From Sphingopyxis sp. H053 (lineage in GTDB: Bacteria > Pseudomonadota > Alphaproteobacteria > Sphingomonadales > Sphingomonadaceae): 64,000 nucleotides of DNA. Shown here one piece after another: positions 5,577 to 30,891 of this stretch. The stretch spans positions 62,001 to 126,000 of the forward strand of contig NZ_LNRU01000004.1 of NCBI RefSeq assembly GCF_001468225.1, read 5' to 3'. A program made the translations under genes and the position numbers. The first letter of the stretch is position 1; each line of letters starts with the position of its first letter. The notes under the pieces are model-generated. The model searched no databases, was not told the origin of the DNA, and worked only from the letters and a program-made list of their open reading frames with translations.

Positions 5577-5588
5577 AAAGTTGCTCCC

Positions 5589-5627: not shown

Positions 5628-5649
5628 CCGCTATGGAAGGCGCTATTTC

Positions 5650-7296: not shown

Positions 7297-7321
7297 TCCG
7301 AACGGACAAAGGGAGAAGACA

Positions 7322-12702: not shown

Positions 12703-13350
12703 TTAATCGTCGACGAGCTGCTGTCGCAGATCGTCCAGCGTCTTGCGGATATGCGCATCGACCAGCACCGCAATCTTGTCCGCATCGCGCGCAAGCCACG
12801 CCTCGAGCAGCTGGTGATGTTCCTCGTTCGCGCGCTCGTCGCGCCCCAGCGGTTCGAGGTGGACGCGCACATAGCGTTCGGAGAGCACCTGCAGACGCTC
12901 GAGAATGGTGATCGTGACCGGCTGGCCGCACGGGCGGAACAGCGCGCGGTGGAAAGCGCGGTTGAAGGCGCCGACCCCGTCGCCATGCTCATCGGTGACA
13001 TGGTCGAGCGTATCGAGCGTTTCGATCGCATGGGAATGATCGGCCTCGGTCGCGAGCAGCGCGGCGCGCGCGGTGGCGTCGGGTTCCAGCTTGATACGCA
13101 GCTCATAGACTTCCTGCGCCTCCGAAGCGCTGAGCGACCGCACAAAGAAGCCGCGGTTCGCCTGTGATCGGACCAGCCCTTCCTCTTCGAGGCGGGCGAG
13201 CGCTTCGCGCAGCGGAATCTTGCTGACGCCGAGTTCGGCGGCCAGCGCGTCCTGGCGGATTGCATGTTCGCTGGAAACGCCGCCCGAAAGGATGCGGTCG
13301 CGGACGAGGTCCACCAGCTGGTCGGACAGGTTTCGGATGATGAGGCTCAT
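12703..13350 (-). CDS. GntR-family transcriptional regulator, FCD domain
   Basis: 215 residues from the ATG at 13350 with GAGGT eight bases upstream; the frame is open further up but inside the epimerase gene. Residues about 5-75 form the GntR winged helix (Ala-Ala-Glu-Leu-Gly-Val-Ser-Lys-Ile-Pro-Leu-Arg-Glu-Ala-Leu). Residues 85-210 form the all-helical FCD ligand domain with the Phe-Asn-Arg-Ala-Phe-His and Glu-His-His-Gln metal-binding His pattern. The gene begins 7 bp after the epimerase stop. It is the best candidate to bind the four GTATAC palindromes, including the one driving its own operon, with Hyp or a pathway intermediate as effector. Confidence 0.92.
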   Translation of the reverse strand: MSLIIRNLSDQLVDLVRDRILSGGVSSEHAIRQDALAAELGVSKIPLREALARLEEEGLVRSQANRGFFVRSLSASEAQEVYELRIKLEPDATARAALLATEADHSHAIETLDTLDHVTDEHGDGVGAFNRAFHRALFRPCGQPVTITILERLQVLSERYVRVHLEPLGRDERANEEHHQLLEAWLARDADKIAVLVDAHIRKTLDDLRQQLVDD

Positions 13351-13357
13351 ACAGACC

Positions 13358-14356
13358 TCATAGCACCGAAAATCCATTCCAGAAGCTGTCTGCTTGATCG
13401 ACCCAGATCGTGTTGAATCCGGTCGCGATCGCCGATCCCTCGATCGAGGGAATAATGCCGGGCGTATCGCCGAGCATCGCATTGTCCTCGACCCGTCCGA
13501 TGAAGCGGCTGCAGATATAGCTTTCGTGGACGAAACGGTCGCCAACCTGCAGCCGTCCCTTGGCGACGAGATGCGCCATCCGCGCCGACGTGCCGGTGCC
13601 GCACGGGCTGCGGTCGATCGCGCGCTCGCCATAAAAGACCGCGTTGCGGCCGTCGGCGCCTTCACCTTTGGGGCGGTCGGTCCACATGACATGGCTGACG
13701 CCCCGAATGCGGTCGTCAACGGGATGCACCGGCTCGTACGCCGCCTGCATCAGCGAGCGAATGGCGCGGCTCAGATCGACGATCCGCGCCGCGCCGAGCG
13801 CATCGAGACCGATATAGGGGCCCTGCGGCTCGATGATCGCATAATAATTGCCGCCATAGGCAACATCGACCTTGAGCCGGCCGAAGCCGGGGACGTCGAT
13901 TTCGATCCCCTCGGCTGCGAGATAGGAGGGCACGTTGCGGATCCGCACCCACGAAACCCGGTCACCCTCGGTGCCATATTCGATGTCGATCGTTCCCGCG
14001 GGAACCTCGACGCGCAGCTTGCCGGGCACCCGCGGGGTAATCAGCCCATTCTCGAGCCCGAAGGTGATGAGCCCGATCGTCCCGTGGCCGCACATCGGAA
14101 GGCAGCCGCTCGTTTCGATGAACAGGATGCCGATGTCGCTGTCCGGCTGAGTGGGCGGATAAAGAAATCCGCCCGACATCATGTCGTGCCCGCGCGGTTC
14201 GAAACAAAGGCTCGTCCGGATCCAGTCGAACCGGTCGAGGAAATCCTGGCGCCGCTCGCCCATCGACCCTCCGCGGACGAGCGGCGCACCACCGGCGACC
14301 AGCCGGACCGGATTTCCGGCAGTGTGGCCGTCGATGCAGAAGAAGGTGTGGCGCAT
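13358..14356 (-). CDS. 4-hydroxyproline 2-epimerase (proline racemase family)
   Basis: 332 residues starting Met-Arg-His-Thr-Phe-Phe. Proline racemase fold with both catalytic cysteines: Cys89 in Met-Cys-Gly-His-Gly-Thr and Cys252 in Asp-Arg-Ser-Pro-Cys-Gly-Thr-Gly-Thr. Keeping both argues for an epimerase rather than a trans-3-hydroxy-L-proline dehydratase, where the second Cys is replaced by Thr. It converts trans-4-hydroxy-L-proline to cis-4-hydroxy-D-proline, the first step of the bacterial pathway. The deaminase is 17 bp upstream and the regulator 7 bp downstream. Proline racemase activity is the main alternative but fits the neighbours less well. Confidence 0.93.
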   Translation of the reverse strand: MRHTFFCIDGHTAGNPVRLVAGGAPLVRGGSMGERRQDFLDRFDWIRTSLCFEPRGHDMMSGGFLYPPTQPDSDIGILFIETSGCLPMCGHGTIGLITFGLENGLITPRVPGKLRVEVPAGTIDIEYGTEGDRVSWVRIRNVPSYLAAEGIEIDVPGFGRLKVDVAYGGNYYAIIEPQGPYIGLDALGAARIVDLSRAIRSLMQAAYEPVHPVDDRIRGVSHVMWTDRPKGEGADGRNAVFYGERAIDRSPCGTGTSARMAHLVAKGRLQVGDRFVHESYICSRFIGRVEDNAMLGDTPGIIPSIEGSAIATGFNTIWVDQADSFWNGFSVL

Positions 14357-14373
14357 GGACTCTCCCTGGCCCG

Positions 14374-15288
14374 TCAGGCTGCGATCTTGCTCGGCTGCGT
14401 CGCCGCGCATTTTTCGACCATCGCGATCACATCCTTGCGGCGCTGGCCAGCGAGCGGCAGGCGCGGCATGCGGACGCGTTCAGAACCGCGCCCCATGATC
14501 TCTTCGGCGAGCTTGATCGACTGGACCAGATCGCGGTCGGCGTCGAGATGGAGAAGCGGCATGAACCAGCGATAGATCGCCAGCGCCTCGTCATGTCTGC
14601 CCTCGTTGAAGGCCGCGACAAGGCGAACCGATTCGGTCGGGAAGGCGCTCGTCAGCCCCGAGACCCAGCCACTGGCGCCGAGGAACAGGCCCTCGAGCGC
14701 GACGTCGTCGAGCCCCGCCATCACCGTATAGCGATCGCCGAAACGGTTGAAGACATCGGTGAAGCGGCGCGGATCGGGCGCGCTTTCCTTGATCGCGACG
14801 ATGTTGGACACGTCGCGCAGCGCCTCGAGCGTCGCGAAATCGACGTCGACGCGGTACGCGGGCGGATTGTTATAGAGCATGACCGGCAGCGAGGTCGCCT
14901 CGGCAACGGCACGGAAATGCGCCTGCAGCTCTTCGGGGGTCGGCACATAGACCATCGCGGGCAAGAGCATGATCGCATCGGCGCCGAGCTTTTCGGCATC
15001 CTTCGCATATTGGATCGCGCGCGCGGTGGTGAGTTCGGACACGCCCGCGACGACGGGCACGCGCCCGGCAACCGCCTCGACCGCGCCTTTCAGGATATTC
15101 CGCTTTTCGTCGGGCTCGAGCGAATTATTCTCGCCGCACGTGCCGAGAATGATGAGCCCGGTCACCCCGTCATCGACAAGCGCGCTCTGCACACGCTGGG
15201 TTGCATCGAAATCGACCGACAGATCTTCGGCGAATTGAGTGGTAGCTGCGGGATATACGCCCTCCCACAGTGTCCTTATCACGCTCAT
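14374..15288 (-). CDS. dihydrodipicolinate synthase-family enzyme, probable pyrroline-4-hydroxy-2-carboxylate deaminase
   Basis: 304 residues, class I aldolase-type TIM barrel of the DapA/NAL family: Gly-Thr-Cys-Gly-Glu near 49-53, Tyr139 in Leu-Tyr-Asn-Asn-Pro-Pro and the Schiff-base Lys167 in Ala-Ile-Lys-Glu-Ser. GGAGGT lies before the ATG. Flanked by epimerase and D-amino acid oxidase genes, it should turn pyrroline-4-hydroxy-2-carboxylate into 2-oxoglutarate semialdehyde plus ammonia, step 3 of hydroxyproline breakdown. A lysine-biosynthesis DapA is unlikely in this setting. It is the first gene of its operon, directly after operator 2. Confidence 0.88.
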   Translation of the reverse strand: MSVIRTLWEGVYPAATTQFAEDLSVDFDATQRVQSALVDDGVTGLIILGTCGENNSLEPDEKRNILKGAVEAVAGRVPVVAGVSELTTARAIQYAKDAEKLGADAIMLLPAMVYVPTPEELQAHFRAVAEATSLPVMLYNNPPAYRVDVDFATLEALRDVSNIVAIKESAPDPRRFTDVFNRFGDRYTVMAGLDDVALEGLFLGASGWVSGLTSAFPTESVRLVAAFNEGRHDEALAIYRWFMPLLHLDADRDLVQSIKLAEEIMGRGSERVRMPRLPLAGQRRKDVIAMVEKCAATQPSKIAA

Positions 15289-15312
15289 TCATTACCTCCG
15301 TTGAAGCTTCAG

Positions 15313-15334
15313 ATCGTATACGGTATATGATACA
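15313..15334. promoter_or_regulatory. operator 2 (GTATAC palindrome), probable GntR site
   Basis: ATCGTATACGGT at 15313-15324 is followed by TATATGATAC. It sits in the 48-bp gap between the divergent deaminase and D-Hyp oxidase genes, so it must overlap both promoters. The core differs by one base from the perfect palindrome upstream of proC. A TATGAT at 15326-15331 could be the -10 box of the rightward promoter, which would place the operator between -35 and -10 (repressor geometry). Confidence 0.7.
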
Positions 15335-15336
15335 AG

Positions 15337-16611
15337 ATGCCAAATGATTTTCCATCTCGCTCGTCCGATCCGCAGAATGCCGTCGTAATTGGCGGTGGCG
15401 TCGTCGGACTCGCCACCGCTCTCGCGCTACAAAAACGCGATATTTCAGTCACATTGATCGATTCGCCCCCGGCATCCCCTGCCGCATCATGGGGCAATGC
15501 GGGCCATATCGCCATCGAACAGGTCGAACCGCTCGCGTCGCGCGCGACGATCCGCTCGATGCCGCGCCGCCTGTTCTGGCGGGGCGGCGCGCTGTCGTTG
15601 CCGCTGCGCGATATCGGCGCGTGGCTGCCCTTCTCGCTGCGGCTCGTCGCCGCGACGAGTCCCGTGCGCTTCGCGGCCGGCCGCGCGGCGCTCGGTCAGG
15701 CGCTCGGCGATGCGATGGGTTCGTGGCGCCGGTTGCTGGGCCGAATCGGGGCGGGCGACCTCCTCGTCGAGGATGGCCATTATATCCTGTGGGAAAGCGC
15801 CGCGAGCGCCGACGCTGGCCGCGCGCACTGGGCGGCAACCGATATCGGCCAAGCGAGGATGCGTGATGCAACGTCCGCCGAGATGACGCGGTTGGCCGCG
15901 CTCACATCGGCGTCGGTCGCGGGAGCCGTCCATATTGCGGGATCGGGCCAGATCACCGACCTCGATGCGCTGGGCGCGGCGCTGCGCGCGGGCTTCGATG
16001 CGGCCGGCGGTTCGCGAATCGAAACGAGGATCGACCGGCTGGTGATCGAGGACGGCCGCGCCGTCGCCATCGCCGCGGACGGTACATGCCACACCGCGGA
16101 TGCGATGGTGATCGCGGGCGGCGCCGCGTCGGGCGCGCTGATGGCGTCGATCGGCCAGCGCGTGCCGATCATCGCCGAGCGCGGCTATCATATCCAGTCG
16201 GCCGACACCGGCTGGCCGCATGATATGCCGCCGGTGGTGTTCGAGGACCGGTCGATGATCGTCACCCGCTTCCGCTCGGGGCTGCGCGCCGCGAGCTTCG
16301 TCGAATTCGGCCGCGGCGCCAGCCCAGCCGATCCGCGCAAATGGGCGCGGCTGCGAAAACATGTCGCGGCGCTCGGCCTGTCCTTTGGGCTGCCCGGCGC
16401 CGAATGGATGGGCGCGCGGCCGACGCTGCCCGACTATCTGCCCGCGATCGGGCGGAGCGGCCGCGCGGCGAACCTCTTCTATGCGTTCGGCCACCAGCAT
16501 CTGGGCCTGACCCTCGCCGCGACGACGGGCGATGCCATCGCCGCGCTCGTCGCTGGCGACGCGCCGCCCTTCGACCTCGCCCCCTTCGACATCAAGCGTT
16601 TTGGAGCCTGA
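15337..16611 (+). CDS. FAD-dependent D-amino acid oxidoreductase (probable cis-4-hydroxy-D-proline oxidase)
   Basis: 424 residues, DAO family: the FAD-binding Val-Val-Ile-Gly-Gly-Gly-Val-Val-Gly at 16-24, the Trp-Gly-Asn-Ala-Gly-His loop near 50, and a C-terminal Phe-Gly-His-Gln-His-Leu-Gly-Leu-Thr that closes the FAD site as in D-amino acid dehydrogenases (DadA type). It should oxidise cis-4-hydroxy-D-proline to pyrroline-4-hydroxy-2-carboxylate, step 2. No ribosome site precedes the ATG, only the operator, so the mRNA may be leaderless. The M24 peptidase gene follows after 1 base. Confidence 0.9.
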   Translation: MPNDFPSRSSDPQNAVVIGGGVVGLATALALQKRDISVTLIDSPPASPAASWGNAGHIAIEQVEPLASRATIRSMPRRLFWRGGALSLPLRDIGAWLPFSLRLVAATSPVRFAAGRAALGQALGDAMGSWRRLLGRIGAGDLLVEDGHYILWESAASADAGRAHWAATDIGQARMRDATSAEMTRLAALTSASVAGAVHIAGSGQITDLDALGAALRAGFDAAGGSRIETRIDRLVIEDGRAVAIAADGTCHTADAMVIAGGAASGALMASIGQRVPIIAERGYHIQSADTGWPHDMPPVVFEDRSMIVTRFRSGLRAASFVEFGRGASPADPRKWARLRKHVAALGLSFGLPGAEWMGARPTLPDYLPAIGRSGRAANLFYAFGHQHLGLTLAATTGDAIAALVAGDAPPFDLAPFDIKRFGA

Positions 16612-16612
16612 C

Positions 16613-17815
16613 ATGACCAACGGAATCGGCGGATCGACCGCCGCACAGGAACTCGCCGCCATTGCCCCCTGGGCCGATCGCGCCGCGCCGATCGCCGCGG
16701 CGGAGCGCGAGCAACGAATCGAAAAGGCGCGGCGGCTGATGCACGCGAACGGCGCCGACGCGCTGCTGGTCGGGGCGGGCGCGAGCCTGCGCTATTTTGC
16801 AGGCATCCCGTGGGGCGCGAGCGAGCGGCTGGTCGCGATGCTGCTGCCGCGCACGGGAAAACCCATCGTCATCGCGCCCGCGTTCGAGCTCGGCACGCTC
16901 GAGGCCGACCTCAAGATCGAGGTCGAGTTGCGATTGTGGGAGGAGGATGAGAGTCCGTCCGAACTGGTGGTCGGTGCCTTGCGCGAGATTGACGCGACCA
17001 GGCTCGCGATCGATCCGGGCATGGCGTTCCTGTTCGTCGATCGCATCCGCCGCGCCGGTCCGGCGCTCGACATCGTCGACGGCGGGCCGATTGTCGACGG
17101 CTGCCGGATGGTTAAATCCGCCACCGAACTCGCGCTGCTCCAGCAGGCGAAGTCGATGACGCTCGAAGTGCATCGCCGCGCCGCGCGCATCCTCGCTCCC
17201 GGCATCCGCGCGAGCGAGGTCACACGCTTTCTGGAGGAGGCGCACCGCGCGATCGGCGCGCCGGGCGGCAATGATTTCTGCATCGTCCAGTTCGGCCGCT
17301 CGACCGCCTTTCCGCACGGGCTTCCCGGCGACGCGCAATTGCACGAAGGCGACGTCGTGCTGATCGACGTCGGCTGCGTCGTCGAAGGCTATCATTCGGA
17401 TATCACCCGCACCTATGTCTTCGGCGACGCCGATGCGGAGCAGCGGCACATCTGGGAGCTCGAAAAGGAAGCGCAGGCCGCGGCCTTCGACGCCGCGCGG
17501 CCCGGCGCGCCGTGCGAGGCGGTCGATGCCGCCGCACGCGCCGTGCTGGAGAAGGCGGGGCTCGGCCCCGACTATCGCTTGCCCGGGCTGCCGCATCGCA
17601 CCGGCCACGGCATCGGGCTGTCGATCCACGAGCCCGCCTATCTGGTGCGCGGCGACACGACCCCGCTCGCACCCGGCATGTGTTTTTCGAACGAGCCGAT
17701 GATCGTTATCCCCGACCGCTTTGGCATCAGGCTCGAGGATCATTTCTACATGACCGAAAGCGGCGCCAAATGGTTCACCGAACCCTCGCCCGCGATCGAC
17801 CGGCCGTTCGGCTGA
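16613..17815 (+). CDS. M24 family Xaa-Pro peptidase (prolidase/aminopeptidase P type)
   Basis: 400 residues from the ATG at 16613, one base after the oxidase stop. Creatinase-like N-terminal domain, then the pita-bread domain with all five metal ligands: Asp252 (Asp-Val-Gly), Asp263 (Ser-Asp-Ile-Thr-Arg-Thr), His332 (Thr-Gly-His-Gly-Ile-Gly), Glu361 (Asn-Glu-Pro) and Glu375 (Leu-Glu-Asp-His). No signal peptide, so cytoplasmic. It would cleave Xaa-Pro or Xaa-Hyp bonds, feeding the pathway encoded next to it. It is convergent with the reductase gene, stop codons one base apart. Dipeptidase versus aminopeptidase P cannot be decided here. Confidence 0.92.
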   Translation: MTNGIGGSTAAQELAAIAPWADRAAPIAAAEREQRIEKARRLMHANGADALLVGAGASLRYFAGIPWGASERLVAMLLPRTGKPIVIAPAFELGTLEADLKIEVELRLWEEDESPSELVVGALREIDATRLAIDPGMAFLFVDRIRRAGPALDIVDGGPIVDGCRMVKSATELALLQQAKSMTLEVHRRAARILAPGIRASEVTRFLEEAHRAIGAPGGNDFCIVQFGRSTAFPHGLPGDAQLHEGDVVLIDVGCVVEGYHSDITRTYVFGDADAEQRHIWELEKEAQAAAFDAARPGAPCEAVDAAARAVLEKAGLGPDYRLPGLPHRTGHGIGLSIHEPAYLVRGDTTPLAPGMCFSNEPMIVIPDRFGIRLEDHFYMTESGAKWFTEPSPAIDRPFG

Positions 17816-17816
17816 G

Positions 17817-18833
17817 CTAGCCCAGCAGCGCGCGCACGTCGTCGTAGAGCGGACGCGGCACCTGCACGCCATTCGCGAGGCTGCGCGCGCGCGCCTCGAA
17901 GCGGCGCTGCGACGGCAGGCGCGCGCCCTGCCCGGTGATCGCGTCGAATACCGCTTCGGCACGTTCGATATGCTTCGCCGCCTCGGCACCGAGGAAGCCC
18001 GCGGGATCGATCGCGAGAATGAATTCGCCGCCGATCGGCGATGAGCCGGCGCCATCGTCGAGCGCGATCGATTCGGCGCTGGTGAGATCGCCGATCAGCG
18101 GCCCCGCGATCAGTTCGACCATCGTCGCGAGCGCCGACCCCTTGTGCCCGCCGAACGTCAGCATCGCGCCGTCGAGCGCGGCTTTGGCATCGGTCGTCGG
18201 TCGCCCTTCGGCGTCGATGCCCCAGCCTTCGGGAATCGGCTTGCCGGCACGGCGATGCAGTTCGATCTCGCCGCGCGCGACCGCGCTCGTCGCGAAATCG
18301 AAGATATAGGGATAGGCGCCAGGGCGCGGCCAGCCGAACGCGATCGGGTTGGTGCCGAACAGCGGCTTGATGCCGCCGGCCGGGGCGACCCACGCGTGGC
18401 TGGGGGTGCAGGCGAAGGCGACGAGGCCCGCGGCGGCAACCGCTTCGACCTCGGGCCAGAGCGCCGCGAAATGCACGCAATTGTTGATCCCGAGCGCCGC
18501 AATTCCATTCCGCCGTGCCTTTTCGACGAGCGTCGGCAGCCCGGCGCCGAACGCGGTCTGGGCAAAGCCGCCGCCCGCATCGACCCGAACCAGCGCGGGC
18601 GCGATAGCGGACACGAGGGGGATGGCATCCTTGATCACTTTGCCTGTTTTCAGCGTGTTGACGCAAACGAGCAGGCGATAAATCCCGTGACTCGCGCATT
18701 CGTCGCGTTCGCCGGCGACGATTGTTTCGGTCACCGCCTCGACATGCTGCGGCGCGAGGCCGTGGTGCGTCAGGATTTCGCGCGACAGCGTCGCCACGTC
18801 ATCCAGCGAAAGTCGGACTTTTTCGTCGCTCAT
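17817..18833 (-). CDS. Ldh2/malate dehydrogenase-family reductase, probable delta1-pyrroline-2-carboxylate reductase
   Basis: 338 residues from ATG 18833 (a GTG sits one codon earlier). The family (COG2055, malate/L-sulfolactate/pyrroline-2-carboxylate reductases) shows in the N-terminal Gly-Glu-Arg-Asp-Glu-Cys-Ala-Ser-His-Gly, the Asn-Asn-Cys-Val-His loop and the nucleotide-binding Gly-Gly-His-Lys-Gly-Ser near 235. In hydroxyproline loci these enzymes reduce cyclic imino acids such as pyrroline-2-carboxylate to L-proline with NAD(P)H. Divergent from the GH127 gene, sharing operator 3. No trans-3-Hyp dehydratase is visible, so its imine would come from the D-amino acid oxidase. Confidence 0.85.
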   Translation of the reverse strand: MSDEKVRLSLDDVATLSREILTHHGLAPQHVEAVTETIVAGERDECASHGIYRLLVCVNTLKTGKVIKDAIPLVSAIAPALVRVDAGGGFAQTAFGAGLPTLVEKARRNGIAALGINNCVHFAALWPEVEAVAAAGLVAFACTPSHAWVAPAGGIKPLFGTNPIAFGWPRPGAYPYIFDFATSAVARGEIELHRRAGKPIPEGWGIDAEGRPTTDAKAALDGAMLTFGGHKGSALATMVELIAGPLIGDLTSAESIALDDGAGSSPIGGEFILAIDPAGFLGAEAAKHIERAEAVFDAITGQGARLPSQRRFEARARSLANGVQVPRPLYDDVRALLG

Positions 18834-18882
18834 CACTCATCTCACACAAATGTTCCAAGGGCCATTATAGCCGCTTGCTAAA

Positions 18883-18899
18883 TTCGTATACTATATAAT
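18883..18899. promoter_or_regulatory. operator 3 (GTATAC palindrome), probable GntR site
   Basis: TTCGTATACTAT at 18883-18894 runs into TATAAT (18894-18899), a good -10 box for the rightward GH127 operon. It lies between the divergent reductase and GH127 genes. Overlap of operator and -10 suggests repression. Confidence 0.65.
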
Positions 18900-18935
18900 A
18901 TGCTGTTGCCAAGGCGAGCGAAGTCTCAGGGGAGC

Positions 18936-21326
18936 ATGATGCAAATATGGCACGTCGATCGCCGCACCCTGCTCGCGGGCGCCGCAGCCGCCGCGCTTGT
19001 CCCTGTTTTCGCCCGCGCCGCCCCCGTTTCGACCACGACGTTCGGGCCAGCCAAACCGCTGCCCCTGTCGGCAGTCCGCCTGCTCGAATCGCCCTGGCTT
19101 GAGGCGATCGAAGGCAATCGTCGCTATCTCCACGCACTCGAACCCGACCGCCTGCTGCATAATTTTCGCGCCAGCGCGGGACTCGAACCCAAGGGTGCGG
19201 TCTATGGCGGGTGGGAAAGCGATACCATTGCGGGGCACAGCCTCGGCCATTATCTGACCGCCTTGTCGCTGATGTATGCCCAGACGGGCGACGAAGAATG
19301 CAAGCGCCGCGCCGGGTACATCATCGATGAACTCGCCGCGGCACAGACCGCGCATGGCGACGGCTATGTCGCGGGTTTCACGCGCAAGCGCGGCGATGCC
19401 GTCGAGGATGGCAAGGCGATCTTCGCCGAGCTGAAACGCGGCGACATCCGTTCGATGGGGTTCGACCTCAACGGCTGCTGGGTGCCCTTCTATAACTGGC
19501 ACAAATTGTTCGCCGGATTGTTCGACGCGCAGGAGCTTTGCGGCAATGCGAAGGCGCTACCCGTCGCGGTCGGGCTCGGCACCTATATCGATGGCGTGTT
19601 CGCAGCGTTGAACGACGATCAGGTCCAGCAGATACTCGATTGCGAGCATGGCGGAATCAACGAGAGCTTTGCCGAGCTGCACGCGCGAACGAAAGACCCG
19701 CGCTGGCTGCGCCTCGCCGAGCGGCTGCGGCACCGCAAGATACTCGACCCGCTCAGCGAGGGCACGGATTCGCTGCCGTGGATCCATGCCAACACCCAGA
19801 TCCCGAAAATCATCGGCCTCGCGCGGCTGCACGAGCTGACCGGCAAGGCGGGCGACGCGGCGGCGGCGCGCTTCTTCTGGGAAACGGTGATCCGCGACTA
19901 TAGCTACGTCATCGGCGGCAATGCCGACCGCGAATATTTCCCGGCGCCGCGGACGATCTCGAAACATATCACCGAGCAGACGTGCGAAAGCTGCAACAGC
20001 TATAATATGCTCAAGCTCACCCGCCACCTCTATGGCTGGCGGCCCGAGGCGCGGCTGTTCGATTATTATGAGCGCGCGCACACCAACCATATCCTCGCGC
20101 ATCAGGACCCGGCGACGGGCATGTTCGCCTATATGGTGCCGCTGATGTCGGGGTCGGCGCGCGAATTTTCGAAACCCTTCGACGATTTCTGGTGCTGCGT
20201 CGGGTCGGGAATGGAAAGCCACGCCAAGCATGGCGATTCGGTGTGGTGGCAGAGCGGCGACACGCTGCTCGTGAACCTCTACATCGCCTCGACCGCGACA
20301 TGGGAAAGCCAGGGCGCGAGCTTCCGGATGGAGACCGCCTACCCGTTCGGCGATCGGGTCGATCTCACACTCGAGACGCTGGGCCGCTCACGCGATTTTG
20401 CCGTCGCGCTGCGAATCCCTGGCTGGTGCGAGGGCGCGGCGCTGACGGTGAACGGCAAATCCGTGCCCGCGGGAACCTCTGGCGATTATGCGGTGATCCG
20501 CCGCCGCTGGGCGAAGGGCGACCGGATCGCGCTGACGCTGCCGATGCGGCTGCGCACCGAAGCCGCGAACGACGATCCGGCGACCGTCGCGCTGCTCCAC
20601 GGCCCCGTCGTACTCGCCGCCGACCTCGGCCCCGCCGACCAGCCGTTCGAGGGGCCCGCTCCCGCGCTCGTCGCGGCCGATCTGCTCGCGGGCTTCGCGC
20701 CGGTCGATGCCGCGGCAGGTCGTTTCCGTACGACCGGCATCGCACGGCCCGCCGACCTCAGCTTCGCACCCTTTTACCAGCAGCGCGATCGCCGCACCGC
20801 GGTCTATTTCAAAAGCTTCGACGACGCCGGCTGGGCGCGCGAGCAGGTCGCCTTTGCCGCCGAGCATGCGCGCCAGCAGGATCTCGCGCGCCGGTCGGTC
20901 GATGTGATGAATTTGGGCGAGATGCAGCCCGAGCGCGACCATGGGCTGACCGCCAAGAACAGCTATGCCGTCACCTATCGCGGCCGCCACGGGCGCGATG
21001 CCCGGACCTTCGGCTTTTTCGAATATAGAGCGAAGGTGCGCCCCGGACCGCTGGTGCTGCAGGCGACCTATTGGGGCGAAGAGCGGAACAAGCTGTTCGA
21101 CATCCTCATCGACGGAACGAAGATCGCGACGCAGGCACTGGATGGCGGGCACCCCGGCGAATTTTTCACGATCGATTATCCGATCCCGGCCGACCTGACC
21201 CGCGGCAAGGGCGAAGTTACCGTCCGCTTCCAGCCCGCCAACGACACCACACGCTGCGGCCCCGTTTTCGGCGTCCGCATCTTCACGCCCGCTTCAGCCC
21301 CCGAAACAGCCAAAGGGACGGTTTGA
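18936..21326 (+). CDS. DUF1680 beta-L-arabinofuranosidase (GH127/GH146 type), exported
   Basis: 796 residues from ATG 18936; an ATG at 18939 is equally possible behind AGGGGAG. An Asp-Arg-Arg-Thr-Leu-Leu signal sequence (Tat-like) leads an alpha6/alpha6 barrel. The zinc/nucleophile site of beta-L-arabinofuranosidases is intact: Glu351-Ser-Cys353 and Cys420-Cys421 in Phe-Trp-Cys-Cys-Val-Gly, matching Glu338/Cys340/Cys417/Cys418 of the Bifidobacterium enzyme HypBA1. A beta-sandwich region follows from about 690. HypBA1 releases L-arabinose from Hyp-linked oligosaccharides of plant extensins, exactly what a Hyp locus would need. Related families also act on pectic side chains, so specificity is inferred. 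First gene of a five-gene operon. Confidence 0.9.
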   Translation: MMQIWHVDRRTLLAGAAAAALVPVFARAAPVSTTTFGPAKPLPLSAVRLLESPWLEAIEGNRRYLHALEPDRLLHNFRASAGLEPKGAVYGGWESDTIAGHSLGHYLTALSLMYAQTGDEECKRRAGYIIDELAAAQTAHGDGYVAGFTRKRGDAVEDGKAIFAELKRGDIRSMGFDLNGCWVPFYNWHKLFAGLFDAQELCGNAKALPVAVGLGTYIDGVFAALNDDQVQQILDCEHGGINESFAELHARTKDPRWLRLAERLRHRKILDPLSEGTDSLPWIHANTQIPKIIGLARLHELTGKAGDAAAARFFWETVIRDYSYVIGGNADREYFPAPRTISKHITEQTCESCNSYNMLKLTRHLYGWRPEARLFDYYERAHTNHILAHQDPATGMFAYMVPLMSGSAREFSKPFDDFWCCVGSGMESHAKHGDSVWWQSGDTLLVNLYIASTATWESQGASFRMETAYPFGDRVDLTLETLGRSRDFAVALRIPGWCEGAALTVNGKSVPAGTSGDYAVIRRRWAKGDRIALTLPMRLRTEAANDDPATVALLHGPVVLAADLGPADQPFEGPAPALVAADLLAGFAPVDAAAGRFRTTGIARPADLSFAPFYQQRDRRTAVYFKSFDDAGWAREQVAFAAEHARQQDLARRSVDVMNLGEMQPERDHGLTAKNSYAVTYRGRHGRDARTFGFFEYRAKVRPGPLVLQATYWGEERNKLFDILIDGTKIATQALDGGHPGEFFTIDYPIPADLTRGKGEVTVRFQPANDTTRCGPVFGVRIFTPASAPETAKGTV

Positions 21327-21365
21327 CGCACGGCTAATCCGACAATGAAACAGGGGGTCGCAAAA

Positions 21366-23084
21366 ATGGATAGACGCTATCGATTGCTGGTCACGCTCGG
21401 GCTTGTGATATTCGCGCAGCCCACGCTCGCGCAGGAACAGGGCGCGAAGCCCGCGGTCCACGCCAAGTCGGCGATGGCGTCCTCGTCGAACCCCACCGTG
21501 ACCAACGCGATGGTCGAGGTGATGAAGAAAGGCGGCACCGCGCTCGACGCCGTGCTGACCGCGGTGCCGATGCAAGCGGTGATCGAACCGCAGATGACGA
21601 CCCTCGCGGGCGGCGTCTCGATCCTCTATTATGACGCCAAGACCCGCGAATATCATTATCTCGACGCCGAGCTCGATCATACCAAGGACGCACAGGTCGG
21701 CGGCGGCTGGGCGCAATATACCGGCGGCGGCGGCGGCGGCGAGCGGCTGCCCGACACGTCGGGCAAGCGCATCGGTATTCCCGGCACGGTCGCGGGGATG
21801 AAGGCGGCGGCGGACCGCTTCGGCACGCTCAAATGGGGCGATTATTTCGCCCCCGCGATCAAGCTCGCCGACGATGGCTACCCGATGTATTCCTTCCTCT
21901 ACGGCGAACTCGCCGAGGCCGCGCTGACGCGGCTATCGGCCTATCCGTCGGGGCGCGAGGAATATCTGCCCGACGGCTATGTCCCGCCCGTCGGCACGAT
22001 CGTGAAGCATCCGCGGCTGGCGCAGGCAATGCGCCGCATTTCGGCCGAAGGACCATCATATATCTACACCGGCGAATGGGCGCAGCGCTTCGTCGCCGCG
22101 GTGCGCGCGACGGGCGGGGGGCTGACCGCCGAGGAACTGGCGGGGTACAAGGCGCGCTGGGAAACCCCGCTGCGCTCGACCTATAATGGTTACGAGGTCA
22201 TCGGCGCGCCGCCGCCGTCGACCGCGGGCACGCTGATCTCGATGGTGCTCAACGTCGTCGAGAATTACGACCTCAAAGCGCGGCCGCATTATGCGCAGTC
22301 GGCCGAGGCGCTCGAACTGATCCGCCGCGCCTTCGGCTTCGCCGAGACCGCGACCGATGAGTTCGTGCGCGATCCGCTGAGCTATGATGTCCCGACCGAG
22401 ATGTTGCTGTCGAAAGACAATGCGAAGCGCTTTGCGGCGCAGGTGACCGCGAGCCTGCCCAAGCCGGCCACGACATCGCCGCAAGCCGCGGCAACGCCGG
22501 GAAGCGCGCTCGAACTCGCCGCTTCCTTCGACACCCACGACCGGCATTCGACCGACACCAACCATCTCGTTGCGGTCGATGCGCAGGGGAATATGGCCTC
22601 GGTCACCCACTCGGTTTACGGCAGCACCTTCGCGACCGGCATGGTCGTCGACGGGATCGCGATGAACAGCGGCAATAATTTCCCCGGCAACACCGCGGGT
22701 CCCGGCCGCCGCGTGATCTCGCCCTTTCCGCCGACGATGGTCGCGAAGGACGGCAAGCCATGGATGACGATCGGCTCGCCCGGCCTGTCGTCACGCGCGG
22801 TGACGATCACGCTGATCAACCTGCTCGGTTATGGCATGCCGCTCGAACAGGCGGTCGACGCGCCGCGTTTCCAGGGATCGCAGGCGGGCGTGCCGATGGT
22901 GGTCGAAAGCCGCGTGACGCAGGCCGTGCGCGACGAACTTAAGACGCGCTACGGCGTCAATGTCCGCCCGACCGCCCCCTATAATTGGCACTTCGGATCG
23001 ATCCAGGCGATCCAGCGCAATCCCGACGGCAGCCTGACCGGCGTCGCCGATCCTCGCCGCGCCGGCCTCGCGGCCGGTTACTGA
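21366..23084 (+). CDS. gamma-glutamyltransferase family protein (copy 2)
   Basis: 572 residues from ATG 21366, chosen because AGGGGG lies eight bases upstream; an in-frame ATG at 21345 has no such site. Signal peptide to about residue 23 (Thr-Leu-Ala-Gln). The Ntn-hydrolase cleavage site reads Ser-Thr-Asp-Thr-Asn-His-Leu-Val-Ala-Val-Asp, giving nucleophile Thr398, followed by the Gly-Ser-Pro-Gly oxyanion region. It is quite diverged from copy 1 at 9199-11040, with a different processing motif, so the two probably act on different gamma-glutamyl or acyl-amide substrates. Second gene of the GH127 operon. Confidence 0.9.
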   Translation: MDRRYRLLVTLGLVIFAQPTLAQEQGAKPAVHAKSAMASSSNPTVTNAMVEVMKKGGTALDAVLTAVPMQAVIEPQMTTLAGGVSILYYDAKTREYHYLDAELDHTKDAQVGGGWAQYTGGGGGGERLPDTSGKRIGIPGTVAGMKAAADRFGTLKWGDYFAPAIKLADDGYPMYSFLYGELAEAALTRLSAYPSGREEYLPDGYVPPVGTIVKHPRLAQAMRRISAEGPSYIYTGEWAQRFVAAVRATGGGLTAEELAGYKARWETPLRSTYNGYEVIGAPPPSTAGTLISMVLNVVENYDLKARPHYAQSAEALELIRRAFGFAETATDEFVRDPLSYDVPTEMLLSKDNAKRFAAQVTASLPKPATTSPQAAATPGSALELAASFDTHDRHSTDTNHLVAVDAQGNMASVTHSVYGSTFATGMVVDGIAMNSGNNFPGNTAGPGRRVISPFPPTMVAKDGKPWMTIGSPGLSSRAVTITLINLLGYGMPLEQAVDAPRFQGSQAGVPMVVESRVTQAVRDELKTRYGVNVRPTAPYNWHFGSIQAIQRNPDGSLTGVADPRRAGLAAGY

Positions 23085-23102: not shown

Positions 23103-24851
23103 ATGCGATATCTCGCTCCCGCACTGCTGGCGGTCTCGGCCATCGCCCTCGGCGCTCCCGCTTTCGCGCAAGCTCCGCAATCGGCCTCACAGTCGGCAGA
23201 CGCGCGGCTGAAGGCGCTTTACGATGCCGAGTGGAAATGGCGCACGCAGGAGCTCGCGCTCGACCCGGACGGCGACCGCGACGGCAGCGACCGCTTTCCG
23301 AGCGTCGATGCCGCAAGCCAGGCGCGCCGCGCCGCCTATTGGAACAATACGCTGGCCGAGCTCAACAAGATCCCGTTCGACCAGCTGTCGCTCGAAGAGC
23401 GGATAAACGCCGAGGTGTTCAAGACCGCACTCGAAGAGTTCGGGGTCGAGCAGAAATACCGCGAATATGAGGATCCGTTCTTTTTCTGGACGTGGATCGC
23501 GCCGCGCGGCGGGCTGCCGAACGCCGACGCCTATCGCAATTATATCAAGCGGCTCGGCGATATGCCGCGTTATGTCGATCAGCAGATCGTCAACATGCGC
23601 GCAGGGCTCAAGCGCGGCTTCACCAAGCCGCAGGTCTCGCTAGCCGGCCGTGACGCGCCGATCGAACCGCTGGCGTCGGCCGATGTCGACAAGAACCCGC
23701 TGTTCACCAGCTTCGCTGCAATGCCCGGCAGCATCCCCGAAACCGAACGCACGGCTTTGGTAGCCGAGGGCCGCGCTGCGGTCGCTGCTGCGGCACCGGC
23801 GTTCGCAAAGCTGCGCGCCTTCGTCCGCGACGAATATATCCCCAAGGCGCGCACCGCGATCGCGGGCGAAGCGCTGCCCGACGGCAAGGCCTATTATGCC
23901 GCGAAGATTCGCCAATATACGACGCTCGACCTGACACCCGAGCAGATCCATGAAATCGGGATCAAGGAGGTCGCGCGGATCGACGCCGACATGCAGGCGA
24001 CGATGAAGAAGTCGGGATGGACGGGCGATTTCGCCGGCTTCCTCCACTTTCTCAAGACCGATCCGCAGTTTACCGCGAAATCGCCGTACGAGCTGATGGC
24101 GAAATCGGCCTATGTCGCGAACCGGATCAACGGCCAGCTCAAATTCCTCGTCGGCCACCTGCCGCGCTATCGCTTCACGATCCGCCAGACGCCCGACAAT
24201 ATCGCGCCCTTCGCGACCGGGGGAAACGGGGGGCTCGAGAGCTGCCTGATGAACACCTATAACCTCCCCGCGCGGCCGCTCTATACGATCCCGCCTTTGA
24301 CCGCGCACGAATGCGCACCGGGGCATAGCTTTCAGGCGGCGCTCGCGCTCGAGGCGCCCGACCGGCCGCAGATCCGTCGGACGACCTATTTCTCGGGCTA
24401 TGGCGAAGGCTGGGGGCTCTACACCGAATGGCTCGGCATCCAGATGGGGCTCTACGAAACGCCCTATGACGAGTTCGGGCGCGAGACGTACGAGATGTGG
24501 CGCGCGGCGCGGCTCGTCGTCGACACCGGGCTGCATCACAAGGGCTGGACGCGCCAGCAGGCGCTCGATTTCATGAAGGCGCACACAGCGCTGTCGGATC
24601 ACGAGATCACGATCGAGGTCGATCGTTACATCAACGATCCGGGCCAAGCGCTCGCGTACAAGCTCGGCGAGATGCTGATCCGCCGCAAGCGTGCCGAGGC
24701 CGAAGCGAAACTCGGTGCCAGTTTCGACCAGCGCTGGTTCCACGACACGCTGCTCGGGCTCGGGTCGGTGCCGCTGCCGACGCTCGAGCGCGTGCTCGAC
24801 GAATGGATCGCGGGCGGGGGCAAGAACCCCAATCCCGAACCCGCCGCCTGA
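23103..24851 (+). CDS. DUF885 family putative metallopeptidase (copy 2)
   Basis: 582 residues, signal peptide to about residue 22 (Pro-Ala-Phe-Ala-Gln). Zinc-site motif His402-Glu403-Cys-Ala-Pro-Gly-His408 and the Gly-Tyr-Gly-Glu-Gly-Trp ligand loop are intact. GGAGAA lies just upstream. Strongly similar in layout to copies 1 and 3; copy 3 follows after 23 bp, so this pair is a tandem duplication. Presumed periplasmic peptidase within the GH127 operon. Confidence 0.88.
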   Translation: MRYLAPALLAVSAIALGAPAFAQAPQSASQSADARLKALYDAEWKWRTQELALDPDGDRDGSDRFPSVDAASQARRAAYWNNTLAELNKIPFDQLSLEERINAEVFKTALEEFGVEQKYREYEDPFFFWTWIAPRGGLPNADAYRNYIKRLGDMPRYVDQQIVNMRAGLKRGFTKPQVSLAGRDAPIEPLASADVDKNPLFTSFAAMPGSIPETERTALVAEGRAAVAAAAPAFAKLRAFVRDEYIPKARTAIAGEALPDGKAYYAAKIRQYTTLDLTPEQIHEIGIKEVARIDADMQATMKKSGWTGDFAGFLHFLKTDPQFTAKSPYELMAKSAYVANRINGQLKFLVGHLPRYRFTIRQTPDNIAPFATGGNGGLESCLMNTYNLPARPLYTIPPLTAHECAPGHSFQAALALEAPDRPQIRRTTYFSGYGEGWGLYTEWLGIQMGLYETPYDEFGRETYEMWRAARLVVDTGLHHKGWTRQQALDFMKAHTALSDHEITIEVDRYINDPGQALAYKLGEMLIRRKRAEAEAKLGASFDQRWFHDTLLGLGSVPLPTLERVLDEWIAGGGKNPNPEPAA

Positions 24852-24874
24852 TTCTTCCGACAAGGAGACGCAAA

Positions 24875-26662
24875 TTGCTCACCCGCACGATCCTGCTTTC
24901 GACCCTCGCCCTCCTGCCGCTCGCGCCTGCGGCGGCAGAGGCACAAGCCGCGGCTGCCCCTTCGGCCGCGGCGGCCACGCCGGGAAGCGCCGACGCCCGG
25001 CTTCGCGAGCTGTACGAGGCCGAGTGGGCCTGGCGGCAGAAGGAATTCGCCCGGCGCATCGGCGACCCGCCCTTCACCGCGTCGGCCGACCATCTGCCGC
25101 GCGTCGATGCGGCGACGCAGGCGGCGCGGCAGGCCTATTGGCAAAAGATGCTCGCCGCGCTCGACACGATTCCGGTCGATCAATTGTCCGAGAATGAGAA
25201 GATCAATGCCGCGGTGCTGCGCACCAGCCTCGAGGCCTTCGTCGCCGAGGGCAAGTACCGGATGTGGGAAATGCCGTTCAACGCCGATAGCCAGTTCTGG
25301 TCGGGGCTGAGTGCGCGCGACGCCTGGCCGTCGCTTGAGGAATATCAACGCTACATCGGCCGCATGCGCGACATCCCGCGCTATTTCGACGAGCAGATCG
25401 TCAATATGCGCGCGGGGCTGAAGCGCGGCTTCAGCGTGCCGCGCGCCTCGCTCGAAGGACGCGACGCAACGATCGCCGCCTATGTCGACACCGACCCGGC
25501 GAAAAACCCCTTCTACAGCGCCTTCGCCAAGATGCCTTCGACGATCCCGGCAGCGGATCAGGAGCGGTTGCGTACCGAAGCGCAGGAGGTGATTTCGGGG
25601 ACGGTGGCGCCCGCGTACGCCAAGCTGCTGACCTTCTTCAAGCAAGAGTATCTGCCCAAGGCGCGCACGACGCTGGCGGCCGAGGCGATGCCCGACGGCA
25701 AGGCCTTTTATCAGGCGCAGATCCGCGAATATACGACCACCGCGCTGACCGCCGAACAGATCCACGAAATCGGCCTCAAGGAAGTCGCGCGGATCACTGC
25801 CGAGATGGAGCAGGTGAAGGAGAAGGCGGGGTTCAAAGGCGACCTTGCGGCGTTCATCCAGTTCCTGCGCACCGACCCGCAATTTTATGCGAAGACCCCC
25901 GAGGAGCTTCTCGCCTTCTCGGCGCTTGTCGCCAAGCGCGCCGACGGCCAGCTGAAATATACGATCGGCTTCCTGCCGCGCTACCGCTTCACCATCCTGC
26001 CGGTGCCCGACGCGATCGCGCCGACCTATACGTCGGGGCGCGGCGGGCTCGATGCGTGCCTGATGAACACCTATGATCTGCCGTCGCGGCCGCTGTACCA
26101 GATCCCCGCGCTGACGCTCCACGAATGCGTTCCCGGGCACAGCTTCCAGGCCGCGGTCGCGCTCGAGACGGTGAAATGGCCCGCCTTCCGCCGCCAGACC
26201 TATTTCTCGGGCTATGGCGAGGGCTGGGGACTCTACACCGAATGGCTCGGCACCAAGATGGGCATTTATCGCACGCCCTACGAGGATTTCGGGCGGCTTT
26301 CGTTCGAAATGTGGCGCGCCTCGCGGCTCGTCGTCGACACCGGCGTCCATCATTATGGCTGGAGCCGCGAGAAGGCGATCGACTATCTCGCGAGCCACAC
26401 CGCACTCGCGCAGCACGACGTCGAGACCGAGATCGACCGCTATATCAGCTGGCCCGGACAGGCGCTCGCTTACAAGCTGGGCGAGATCACGATCCGCCGG
26501 CTGCGCGCCGACGCCGAGGCAAAGCTCGGGCCGAAGTTCGACCAGCGCAAGTTCCACGACACCTTCCTCGCCCTGGGGTCGGTGCCGCTTCCGGTGCTCG
26601 AACAGCAGCTTGAAAAATTCATCGCCGATGGCGGCGAAGGTCCGACCGCCGCCGCCCCCTGA
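24875..26662 (+). CDS. DUF885 family putative metallopeptidase (copy 3), TTG start
   Basis: 595 residues from a TTG at 24875, chosen because AGGAG lies seven bases upstream and it gives a clean signal peptide (Leu-Thr-Arg-Thr-Ile-Leu-Leu to Ala-Glu-Ala-Gln); earlier in-frame starts lie inside the preceding gene. Motif His416-Glu417-Cys-Val-Pro-Gly-His422 and the Gly-Glu-Gly-Trp loop are intact. Closest in feel to copy 1, including shared Ser-Thr-Ile-Pro-Ala-Ala and Gly-Arg-Gly-Gly-Leu stretches. Fourth gene of the GH127 operon. Confidence 0.87.
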   Translation: MLTRTILLSTLALLPLAPAAAEAQAAAAPSAAAATPGSADARLRELYEAEWAWRQKEFARRIGDPPFTASADHLPRVDAATQAARQAYWQKMLAALDTIPVDQLSENEKINAAVLRTSLEAFVAEGKYRMWEMPFNADSQFWSGLSARDAWPSLEEYQRYIGRMRDIPRYFDEQIVNMRAGLKRGFSVPRASLEGRDATIAAYVDTDPAKNPFYSAFAKMPSTIPAADQERLRTEAQEVISGTVAPAYAKLLTFFKQEYLPKARTTLAAEAMPDGKAFYQAQIREYTTTALTAEQIHEIGLKEVARITAEMEQVKEKAGFKGDLAAFIQFLRTDPQFYAKTPEELLAFSALVAKRADGQLKYTIGFLPRYRFTILPVPDAIAPTYTSGRGGLDACLMNTYDLPSRPLYQIPALTLHECVPGHSFQAAVALETVKWPAFRRQTYFSGYGEGWGLYTEWLGTKMGIYRTPYEDFGRLSFEMWRASRLVVDTGVHHYGWSREKAIDYLASHTALAQHDVETEIDRYISWPGQALAYKLGEITIRRLRADAEAKLGPKFDQRKFHDTFLALGSVPLPVLEQQLEKFIADGGEGPTAAAP

Positions 26663-26701: not shown

Positions 26702-28288
26702 ATGCGTATCAACCGCTATCCGATCCTTGTCGCGCTGGCCGCGGCACTCGCGCTGCCCGCCGCCGCGCAGGAAAAGAAAGCCGAAACCGGCAAGAGCGAA
26801 AGCGCCAAGGCCGACGCGAACGAACCCGAAGAGGATATCGCGCGTGCCAGTGCCGAGGAGGACGCGCAGCCGAAACGCGGCAGCGTGACCGTCAAGGGCC
26901 GGACGATCGCCTATACCGCGACCCCCGGCACACTCACCATCCGCGACGACGATGGCGAGGCGGTCGCGAGCATGTTCTACGTCGCCTATGTCGCCGACCG
27001 GCCGAAGGGTTCGGCGCCGCGCCCGGTGACCTTCACCTTCAACGGCGGGCCGGGCTCGTCGAGCATGTGGCTGCACATGGGATCGATCGGCCCCGTGCTC
27101 GTCGAAACGCCGAACGCGGGCAGCACCGCTCCCGCACCCTATCGCATCCGGAGCAATCCCGAGACGATGCTCGACAAGACCGACATCGTCTTCCTCGACG
27201 CGATCGGCACCGGCCTGTCGCGCCCGATCGGCAAATCGAAGGGCCCCGAATTCTGGGGGGTCGATCAGGATATCGACGCCTTCTCGCGCGCTATCATGCG
27301 CTACCTCACGCTCAACGACCGCTGGGACAGCCCGAAATTCCTGTTCGGCGAAAGCTATGGCACGCTGCGCGGCGCGGGGCTGGTCTATGCGCTGCAGCAA
27401 CGCGGGGTGCAGATGAACGGCGTCGTGCTGCTGTCGTCGATCCTGAACTATGGCGTGCGCCAGCCGGGCTACGACCAGATCTACCTCACCTATCTGCCAA
27501 GTTATGCGGCGACCGCCTGGTATCACAACCGGCTGGCTAACAAGCCCGCGGCGCTCGAACCCTTCCTGACCGAAGTGCGGCAGTGGACGACGGGACCCTA
27601 TGCGGCGGCACTCGCCAAGGGATCGGACCTCGGTGACGAGGAACGCAATGCCGTTGCGCAGCAGATGAGCGCCTATACGGGGCTGCCGGTCAAATATATC
27701 CTCGACGCCGACCTGCGCGTTGAACTGTCGCGGTTCCGCAAGGAGTTGATGCGTGACCAGAAGCGCACCGTCGGCCGGCTCGACTCGCGTTTCATCGGGA
27801 TCGACGTCGATGCGGCGGGCGAAGGCCCCGAGTTCGACACCACCGACGCCGCGATCAGCGGGCCCTATGTCGGCGCGCTCAACAAATATCTGTTCGGCAC
27901 GCTCGGCTATAAGACCAAGCTCGCCTATCGCCCCAATTATTACGTCAAGATCGGCGGCGGCAATTGGGACCAGCGCCACCGCGCGCCCGGCGGACGGCAG
28001 GGCGGCGCGCAGATGGCGCTTGCCAACACCGCGCTCGACCTGTCGGCCGCGATGCGCCAGAATCCCTATCTGAAAGTGCTGTCACTCAACGGCTATTACG
28101 ACATGGCGACGCCCTTTTTCGGCGCCGAATATGATCTGAAGCATATGCAGATCGACCCGTCGTTGCGCGCGAACCTGACCTATCATTATTATGAATCGGG
28201 CCACATGGTTTACATCAACCCGGCAGTCATCGGGCAGTTCAAGCGCGACCTCGACGCCTTCTATGACAGCGCGGCCGTAGGCAACTGA
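26702..28288 (+). CDS. S10-family serine carboxypeptidase-like protein, exported
   Basis: 528 residues; signal peptide to about residue 22, then a Lys/Glu-rich low-complexity stretch (23-55). The alpha/beta-hydrolase core has the S10 hallmark Asn-Gly-Gly-Pro-Gly-Ser-Ser near 115 and a full catalytic triad: Ser218 in Gly-Glu-Ser-Tyr-Gly, Asp467 and His501 (Glu-Ser-Gly-His-Met). Serine carboxypeptidases trim C-terminal residues, and several accept proline near the cleavage site, which suits a Pro/Hyp-rich substrate. Last gene of the GH127-GGT-DUF885-DUF885-S10 operon, followed by a strong terminator. Confidence 0.9.
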   Translation: MRINRYPILVALAAALALPAAAQEKKAETGKSESAKADANEPEEDIARASAEEDAQPKRGSVTVKGRTIAYTATPGTLTIRDDDGEAVASMFYVAYVADRPKGSAPRPVTFTFNGGPGSSSMWLHMGSIGPVLVETPNAGSTAPAPYRIRSNPETMLDKTDIVFLDAIGTGLSRPIGKSKGPEFWGVDQDIDAFSRAIMRYLTLNDRWDSPKFLFGESYGTLRGAGLVYALQQRGVQMNGVVLLSSILNYGVRQPGYDQIYLTYLPSYAATAWYHNRLANKPAALEPFLTEVRQWTTGPYAAALAKGSDLGDEERNAVAQQMSAYTGLPVKYILDADLRVELSRFRKELMRDQKRTVGRLDSRFIGIDVDAAGEGPEFDTTDAAISGPYVGALNKYLFGTLGYKTKLAYRPNYYVKIGGGNWDQRHRAPGGRQGGAQMALANTALDLSAAMRQNPYLKVLSLNGYYDMATPFFGAEYDLKHMQIDPSLRANLTYHYYESGHMVYINPAVIGQFKRDLDAFYDSAAVGN

Positions 28289-30794: not shown

Positions 30795-30838
30795 GAAAGG
30801 CGTCTCCGCGACGATATTGTAGAGGAGCGCCTTAGTAC

Positions 30839-30850
30839 ATCGTATACGAT
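30839..30850. promoter_or_regulatory. operator 4 (perfect GTATAC palindrome), probable GntR site
   Basis: ATCGTATACGAT is a perfect 12-bp palindrome 45 bases before the proC-like start. It is the best match to the consensus shared by the four control regions (A/T-T-C-GTATAC-N-N-T) and lies upstream of proC-KGSA dehydrogenase. Confidence 0.72.
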
Positions 30851-30891
30851 TTTGGTCAAGTCATCGCGGGGCAGCCGCCTTGCCGTCGGGC

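Follow-up and report, generated by a model that had tools for sequence, protein, structure and literature searches.

The gene at positions 18936–21326 (+) of a 64,000-nucleotide stretch of the Sphingopyxis sp. H053 genome (hereafter the window) encodes a zinc-site glycosidase, assigned to family GH146 from its sequence, that shares an operator type with the genes of 4-hydroxyproline (Hyp) catabolism and keeps company with such genes in other genomes. The protein is probably exported and acts as a cysteine glycosidase on plant Hyp-rich glycoprotein (extensin-like) peptides, taking beta-linked L-arabinofuranose off their Hyp, with its gene under GntR/HypR-type control together with peptidases and the Hyp pathway. 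An earlier note on this DNA had observed a glycosidase of DUF1680 type with a zinc/cysteine site and a Hyp-gene operator at the head of a peptidase-like operon, and this was confirmed; the family name that it gave (GH127) was wrong, and its interpretation is supported in part.

Gene Model and Family Assignment

The reading frame is open and full-length and codes for 796 aa. An alternative start at 18900 would give 808 aa; the start at 18936 was preferred because 18900 sits inside the pattern-matched operator (18885–18902). The product matches PF07944 (E 3.5e-121), PF20736 (9.6e-26) and DUF6805 (1.3e-19) in Pfam, and these matches, the alignment and a structure model outline an N-terminus, a catalytic barrel, beta-sandwiches and a DUF6805 jelly roll. 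It is the single PF07944 gene in the whole genome. The N-terminus contains DRRTLLAG, which, judged by eye, looks like a twin-arginine-like signal; the protein is presumably exported.

In a search against solved structures, the protein scored 478.8 bits with BT0349 of Bacteroides thetaiotaomicron (GH146, PDB 5opj) and 179.8 bits with Bll3HypBA1 of Bifidobacterium longum (GH146), compared with 97.6 bits for a Geobacillus GH127 enzyme, 65.0 for another GH127 enzyme and about 41 for the GH127 enzyme HypBA1 of B. longum. Because no GH127 score exceeds 97.6 bits, membership of GH127 was rejected and the protein is, by sequence similarity, a new member of GH146 with a putative beta-L-arabinofuranosidase activity. 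Bifidobacterial HypBA1, earlier named as its likeness, has the Cys3-Glu zinc chemistry (as described in PMC10850190) but only 21% identity in the structure alignment; the nearest characterized kin are BT0349 and a XeHypBA1-type protein described below.

Another DUF1680 activity, for example that of an aceric acid hydrolase, is next to negligible in likelihood. Aceric acid hydrolase is the sole NCBIfam match of the protein, but at 85 bits, far short of the cut-off of 950, and this identity was rejected; likewise BT1003 scored 51.6 bits against the 478.8 of BT0349.

Active Site and Predicted Structure

Glu351, Cys353, Cys420 and Cys421 align with E337, C339, C414 and C415 (chain positions) of BT0349, in an alignment with 228 of 514 residues identical, and with E723, C725, C804 and C805 of Bll3HypBA1. 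Neither the 41-sequence nor the 30-sequence alignment shows any variation at these four positions, which bears out the full Cys/Glu zinc site read earlier from the letters. By this alignment they would be the zinc ligands, with Cys420 as the candidate nucleophile and Glu333 as the candidate acid/base. An extra cysteine next to the ligands, Cys350 (in TCESC), is present in at least 90% of the 41 relatives, is less conserved in the wider set of 30 and is replaced by Pro in BT0349.

According to PMC10850190, mutagenesis of Bll3HypBA1 covers 12 positions, and all 12 are kept in the window protein (W93, Y186, E237, H284, N286, T287, E333, E351, C353, Y399, C420 and C421). The functional residues are thus common to both proteins. 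Bll3HypBA1 is described there as beta1,3-specific, with two positions tied to linkage specificity; at these the window protein differs, having L107 and W182. W182 corresponds to W162 of BT0349 (chain position 160, the two-residue offset being presumed).

The model of the protein (mean pLDDT 90.8) contains the catalytic barrel and two beta-sandwiches and matches the five GH146 structure entries listed with Z 41.8–49.4. With BT0349 it aligns over 712–727 residues (Z 47.2–49.4, rmsd 6.4–6.6), with Bll3HypBA1 over 555 residues (Z 41.8–42.9, rmsd 2.0), and with GH127 HypBA1 it gives Z 32.5–38.1. Fold, zinc site, active-site Trp and C-terminal jelly roll are all common to the window protein and BT0349. 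BT0349 differs in its sequence (38–44% identity), in its place outside the clade of the window protein and in its setting, a rhamnogalacturonan-I locus, being active on arabinan-derived substrates (PMC10850190).

The last point counts against a Hyp-linked substrate. If the window protein followed BT0349, its best PDB match with the same Trp, or Bll3HypBA1, it would remove beta-Araf from side chains of arabinan, rhamnogalacturonan or AGP, and would lie where it does since the semialdehyde dehydrogenase of the locus also finishes oxidative arabinose use. We consider this reading unlikely, though it is the most serious competitor; besides the exclusion of BT0349 from the clade, the operator and the gene neighborhoods described below argue against it.

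A Xanthomonas-Type Relative in the Same Clade

XeHypBA1 (XCV2724) of Xanthomonas euvesicatoria cleaves Araf-beta-Hyp and prefers Ara-Hyp (PMC6085000). It is listed together with Bll4HypBA1 of B. longum among the GH146 enzymes for Araf-beta1-Hyp (PMC10850190), Bll4HypBA1 being likened to our protein here by this description. To relate XeHypBA1 to the window protein we relied on one genomic stretch, L235, whose frames encode a GH146 protein of 791 aa, a GH43 protein of 528 aa and a next product of 1471 aa from its first start; XeHypBA1, XeHypAA and XeHypBA2 have 791, 528 and 1452 aa (PMC6085000). Judging by gene order and these three lengths, L235 is probably from Xanthomonas and its GH146 protein a presumed XeHypBA1 orthologue. 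It is similar in length to the window protein and 49.5% identical to it (383/773).

In a quick tree, both proteins fell into one clade of 79 rows (SH-aLRT 99), with BT0349 outside; many rows of our trees have an odd letter make-up, and nine rows (three short proteins and six near-duplicates) as well as Bll3HypBA1 were dropped. The earlier reading could have been overturned if the protein had fallen among DUF1680 members proven to act on other substrates; the clade holds instead a XeHypBA1-type protein, a favorable outcome given the preference of XeHypBA1 for Ara-Hyp (PMC6085000), and one that depends on the L235 row, which was matched to the xehypBA1 locus through the order of its genes and the lengths of three proteins.

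XeHypBA1 is secreted, and a TonB receptor occurs in the locus of both the XeHypBA1-type protein and the window protein. The gene environments differ otherwise. In the Xanthomonas-type stretches, GH146, TonB receptor, S9 peptidase and GH43 genes stand in a row (5/5 stretches of genus g330 and 2/3 of g321) and no Hyp-catabolic genes were found in them, and the adjoining xehypBA2-AA operon is under HrpX (PMC6085000). In three of the g330 stretches, the complete GH43 gene was 59–61% identical to a sphingomonad GH43 query. Both g330 and g321 belong to the family of genome G535, which includes a member identical to a named Lysobacter protein. The lack of Hyp genes in these stretches, like the dependence of the XeHypBA1 link on L235, counts against the Ara-Hyp reading.

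Organization of the Locus

On the left, the locus starts with an amidohydrolase gene (686–2200, −; sequence match), separated by a palindromic operator (2227–2244; motif and genome pattern search) from a TonB-dependent receptor gene (2553–5576, +; domain match, start uncertain). They are followed, by domain and PDB matches, by genes for an amidohydrolase with a weak match to PDB prolidases and for a DUF885 protein (together 5581–9112, +). The next genes lie on the opposite strand: a gamma-glutamyltranspeptidase-like gene (9199–11040, −; PF01019), an amino-acid permease gene (11223–12656, −; PF13520), a GntR/FCD regulator gene, presumed to be HypR-type (12703–13350, −; PF00392/PF07729), the 4-hydroxyproline epimerase gene (13358–14410, −; NF010578 with 532.7 bits against a cut-off of 376, PF05544) and a DHDPS-family gene (14374–15288, −; PF00701) for the presumed pyrroline-4-hydroxy-2-carboxylate deaminase. 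Two overlapping operator matches (15310–15334; pattern and motif) occupy the promoter from which this gene diverges from that of an FAD dehydrogenase (DAO), presumably D-hydroxyproline dehydrogenase (15337–16611, +; PF01266). A gene for an M24 peptidase of Xaa-Pro type (16613–17815, +; PF00557/PF01321) and one for an Ldh_2 family dehydrogenase (17817–18836, −; PF02615) come next; published HypR regulons list a putative malate dehydrogenase (PMC5343134), to which the latter may correspond.

The GH146 gene has its own palindromic operator (AAATTCGTATACTATATA; 18880–18897; pattern and motif) 38 bp before the ATG. Behind it on the same strand are genes for a gamma-glutamyltranspeptidase-like protein (GGT; 21345–23084, +; PF01019), a DUF885 protein, putatively a peptidase (23103–24851, +; PF05960), a second DUF885 protein (24848–26662, +; PF05960, start uncertain) and an S10 serine carboxypeptidase-like protein (26702–28288, +; PF00450 with 38.2 bits against a cut-off of 21.9). 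Between genes with clear starts, the gaps measure 18, 18 and 39 bp; these domains and short gaps agree with the earlier claim that the gene leads four peptidase-like genes. At the right end are an aldehyde dehydrogenase (ALDH) gene (28339–29931, −; PF00171, start read from the sequence), presumably for alpha-ketoglutarate semialdehyde dehydrogenase by its family, and a pyrroline-5-carboxylate-reductase-like (P5CR-like) gene (29928–30794, −; PF14748/PF03807). The P5CR-like gene heads the pair, behind an operator of its own (30836–30853; motif and genome pattern search).

By domain matches, the GntR/FCD gene adjoins epimerase, dehydrogenase and deaminase genes, which is a HypR-type arrangement, and the pathway steps of the locus genes are named presumptively from their families and from the HypR regulon as described in PMC5343134. 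The HypR regulon of Proteobacteria likewise combines a GntR regulator, epimerase, dehydrogenase, deaminase and semialdehyde dehydrogenase, and in some taxa a TonB receptor and proline peptidases (PMC5343134). It differs in its upstream steps, for which collagenases and peptidases, and no glycosidase, are named in the available text of that paper.

No arabinose genes stand beside the GH146 gene, as had been stated earlier for the locus. Elsewhere in the genome, contig C3 carries two GH43 genes along with genes for a TonB receptor, a symporter, a lactonase and a 2-keto-3-deoxy-galactonokinase. It also encodes a sugar-acid dehydratase that falls in the NF009560 group but scores under the L-arabinonate dehydratase cut-off. 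This set suggests an oxidative route for an aldose, arabinose being one candidate sugar, and freed arabinose may be used elsewhere in the genome.

An Operator Common to the GH146 and Hyp Genes

A first operator pattern, based for the most part on the DHDPS/DAO promoter site, matched at 15315 (0 mismatches), 18885 (2) and 2222 (3) and, the 15315 site being a palindrome, on its opposite strand as well; these are four matches at three distinct places, compared with 0.10 in shuffles. A second pattern, WTCGTATACNRTW, was drawn from the four sites themselves; a search of all 5.13 Mb of the genome gave exactly four matches to it, at window positions 2230, 15313, 18883 and 30839. Since its backward control also gave three matches in the genome, the weight lies not on this count but on the fact that no match of WTCGTATACNRTW falls outside the 28.6 kb spanned by these positions. 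The operator type said earlier to be common to the GH146 and Hyp genes is therefore real in the sense that its pattern matches are confined genome-wide to the locus.

To train a palindromic matrix, only DHDPS and DAO promoters of related loci were used (59 promoters after removal of near-duplicate loci from 70, the window included), some of which may overlap a GH146 promoter. At the 99.9% level of shuffles, the motif precedes 53 of the 72 GH146 genes of the window clade, none of the 23 of the sister clade and none of the remaining 43, against a background of 0.15% in 4000 random windows from sister and remaining loci. The 19 clade genes below the threshold count against the Ara-Hyp reading; five of them (L065, L067, L068, L069 and L090) score 10–12 bits, just under the 13.5-bit line. 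A first null had consisted of windows drawn at random from the loci of the clade itself; these included true operators, with 29/72 found at the 99% line, and shuffles and windows taken from other loci were used instead. The GntR protein would bind at these operators, with Hyp as the probable signal. That the operator is the one of the Hyp promoters argues against the action on arabinan-type side chains considered above.

Distribution of the GH146–Hyp Association

Among 397 genomes of the host's family, that of the window included, 44 had a GH146 match at E 1e-30, a number that may be low since only the two best candidates were scored per genome, and 49 had the epimerase. The epimerase was present in all 31 genomes (18 genera) with a GH146 protein of at least 57% identity, compared with 18 of the 366 others (Fisher 9e-34) and with 2 of the 13 having only more distant GH146 matches; the 57% line was fixed after the neighborhoods were known, and trees gave a similar group. 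Within the genus, the GH146 orthologue was found in 5 of 35 congeners and the epimerase in 8, including all five orthologue carriers. This co-occurrence in other genomes strengthens the case for the proposed coupling between removal of the sugar and use of Hyp.

Neighborhoods of 9 kb were counted after removal of six near-duplicate loci (clade 72 to 66). At least one of the epimerase, DHDPS and DAO genes was present in 42/66 clade loci, 0/23 sister loci and 6/43 others, and DUF885 in 52/66, 0/23 and 0/43, respectively. Epimerase, DHDPS, DAO, M24 and DUF885, to which the clade is linked, were each near none of the 23 sister genes, which argues against arabinan or AGP side chains as the substrate, as does the finding of an aldehyde dehydrogenase near only 8 of the 66 clade genes. 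A relative of that dehydrogenase lies near six of the 23 sister genes having no core Hyp genes (L084, L085, L086, L118, L156 and L164), perhaps for oxidative arabinose use, which speaks for the arabinan alternative.

Such a locus is also present in Sphingobium sp. SYK-6 (L127). The association extends beyond the sphingomonads. Linked members of the main clade include four of Azospirillaceae (L129, L130, L132 and L153), one of an Acetobacter (L154) and one of Granulicella (L150), the last with distant relatives of the Hyp genes. The epimerase is also near five of the remaining 43 GH146 genes, all of Bacteroidota (L178, L189, L197, L200 and L204), where epimerase and DHDPS stand beside a GH146 gene of another branch. 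The Acidobacteriota genes L148 and L150 (Granulicella) nest among alphaproteobacterial ones, a position that suggests transfer of GH146 genes of this type between phyla.

A chance neighborhood, with the glycosidase merely beside a Hyp locus, is very improbable. It would fit the differences in gene order between genomes and the 24 of 66 clade loci in which all three core genes are missing from the 9-kb neighborhood (some contigs ending early), loci which also count against the Ara-Hyp reading; but the same gene company is retained despite the varying order, and the common operator and the co-occurrence stand against chance as well.

DUF5695, DUF885 and Other Added Parts

Further families recur within 9 kb of the clade genes: DUF5695 in 29, S9 peptidases in 20, GH43 in 17, GH27 in 7 and GH2 in 6 of the 66 loci, compared with 0, 0, 0, 7 and 1 of the 23 sister loci and 1, 4, 3, 2 and 0 of the 43 others. 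GH27 is weak as a part of the system, being near 7/66 clade genes but also near 7/23 sister genes, where four are about 30% identical. In the window locus neither GH43 nor DUF5695 adjoins the GH146 gene, so that longer Hyp-arabinosides would need trimming otherwise.

One DUF5695 relative, at L144:7161–9905 (−), serves as an example. The DUF5695 model (pLDDT 74.1) best matches the polysaccharide lyase BACCELL_00875 (5no8; Z 26.4, rmsd 3.8 over 611 residues, 13% identity). This lyase belongs to PL27 and has arabinogalactan proteins as its substrates. DUF5695 gave no match to PDB sequences at E 0.01, and its search of the window genome gave no match either, the control also being silent in all 14 genomes. 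In the accessible parts of the literature searched, DUF5695 is named in one paper, on fungal regulators.

The window locus has three DUF885 genes (7277–9112, 23103–24851 and 24848–26662). PDB kin of the last are unnamed lipoproteins or uncharacterized proteins, whose names give no function, and DUF885 was absent from the paper titles found in the literature search. The neighborhood suggests that DUF885 proteins are peptidases acting on peptides rich in Hyp or Pro.

Discussion

On the preferred reading, a GntR/HypR-type regulator acting at GTATAC palindromes would jointly control the TonB receptor, the peptidases, GH146 and the Hyp pathway. Cys420, held by zinc, would attack the sugar, with Glu333 as acid/base by alignment; removal of arabinose would unblock the peptide, from which peptidases would then free Hyp. 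The epimerase, dehydrogenase, deaminase and semialdehyde dehydrogenase, as named from their families, would carry Hyp to alpha-ketoglutarate.

Action of GH127 enzymes on the Hyp-arabinose of extensins was already proposed from Latescibacteria genomes, without Hyp catabolism in the available text (PMC4454575). In the literature searched, which included the accessible parts of PMC10850190, PMC6085000, PMC7263609, PMC4454575 and PMC8424115 and few subscription papers, we found no report joining Hyp catabolism to GH146 or GH127. A GH146 gene in a Hyp locus is thus seemingly an unreported extension of the HypR-type regulon.

A wider proposal, for which we regard the balance as even, is that of a widely shared and transferred catabolon for plant glycoproteins. 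It would unite in one GntR regulon deglycosylation, peptidases for Hyp-rich peptides (DUF885, S9 and M24) and hydroxyproline oxidation, with deglycosylation by GH146, in many relatives by GH43, and by DUF5695 as an unrecognized carbohydrate-active family with a polysaccharide-lyase-like fold. If it holds, hydroxyproline glycopeptides become a substrate on which DUF5695 and DUF885 can be tested.

Bifidobacteria and Xanthomonas are already known to have enzymes that strip Hyp-arabinosides, and the Xanthomonas paper asks of what use this stripping is to a bacterium unable to grow on arabinose (PMC6085000). In sphingomonads and others, operator and neighborhood link the enzyme to hydroxyproline use, and this link makes a general answer testable: the amino acid, not the sugar, may be the prize. 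The pairing of GH146 with the Hyp pathway recurs in many bacterial genera and is not a peculiarity of one strain; it gives candidate substrates to DUF885 and DUF5695 and points to bacteria with a possible capacity to digest extensin-type proteins.
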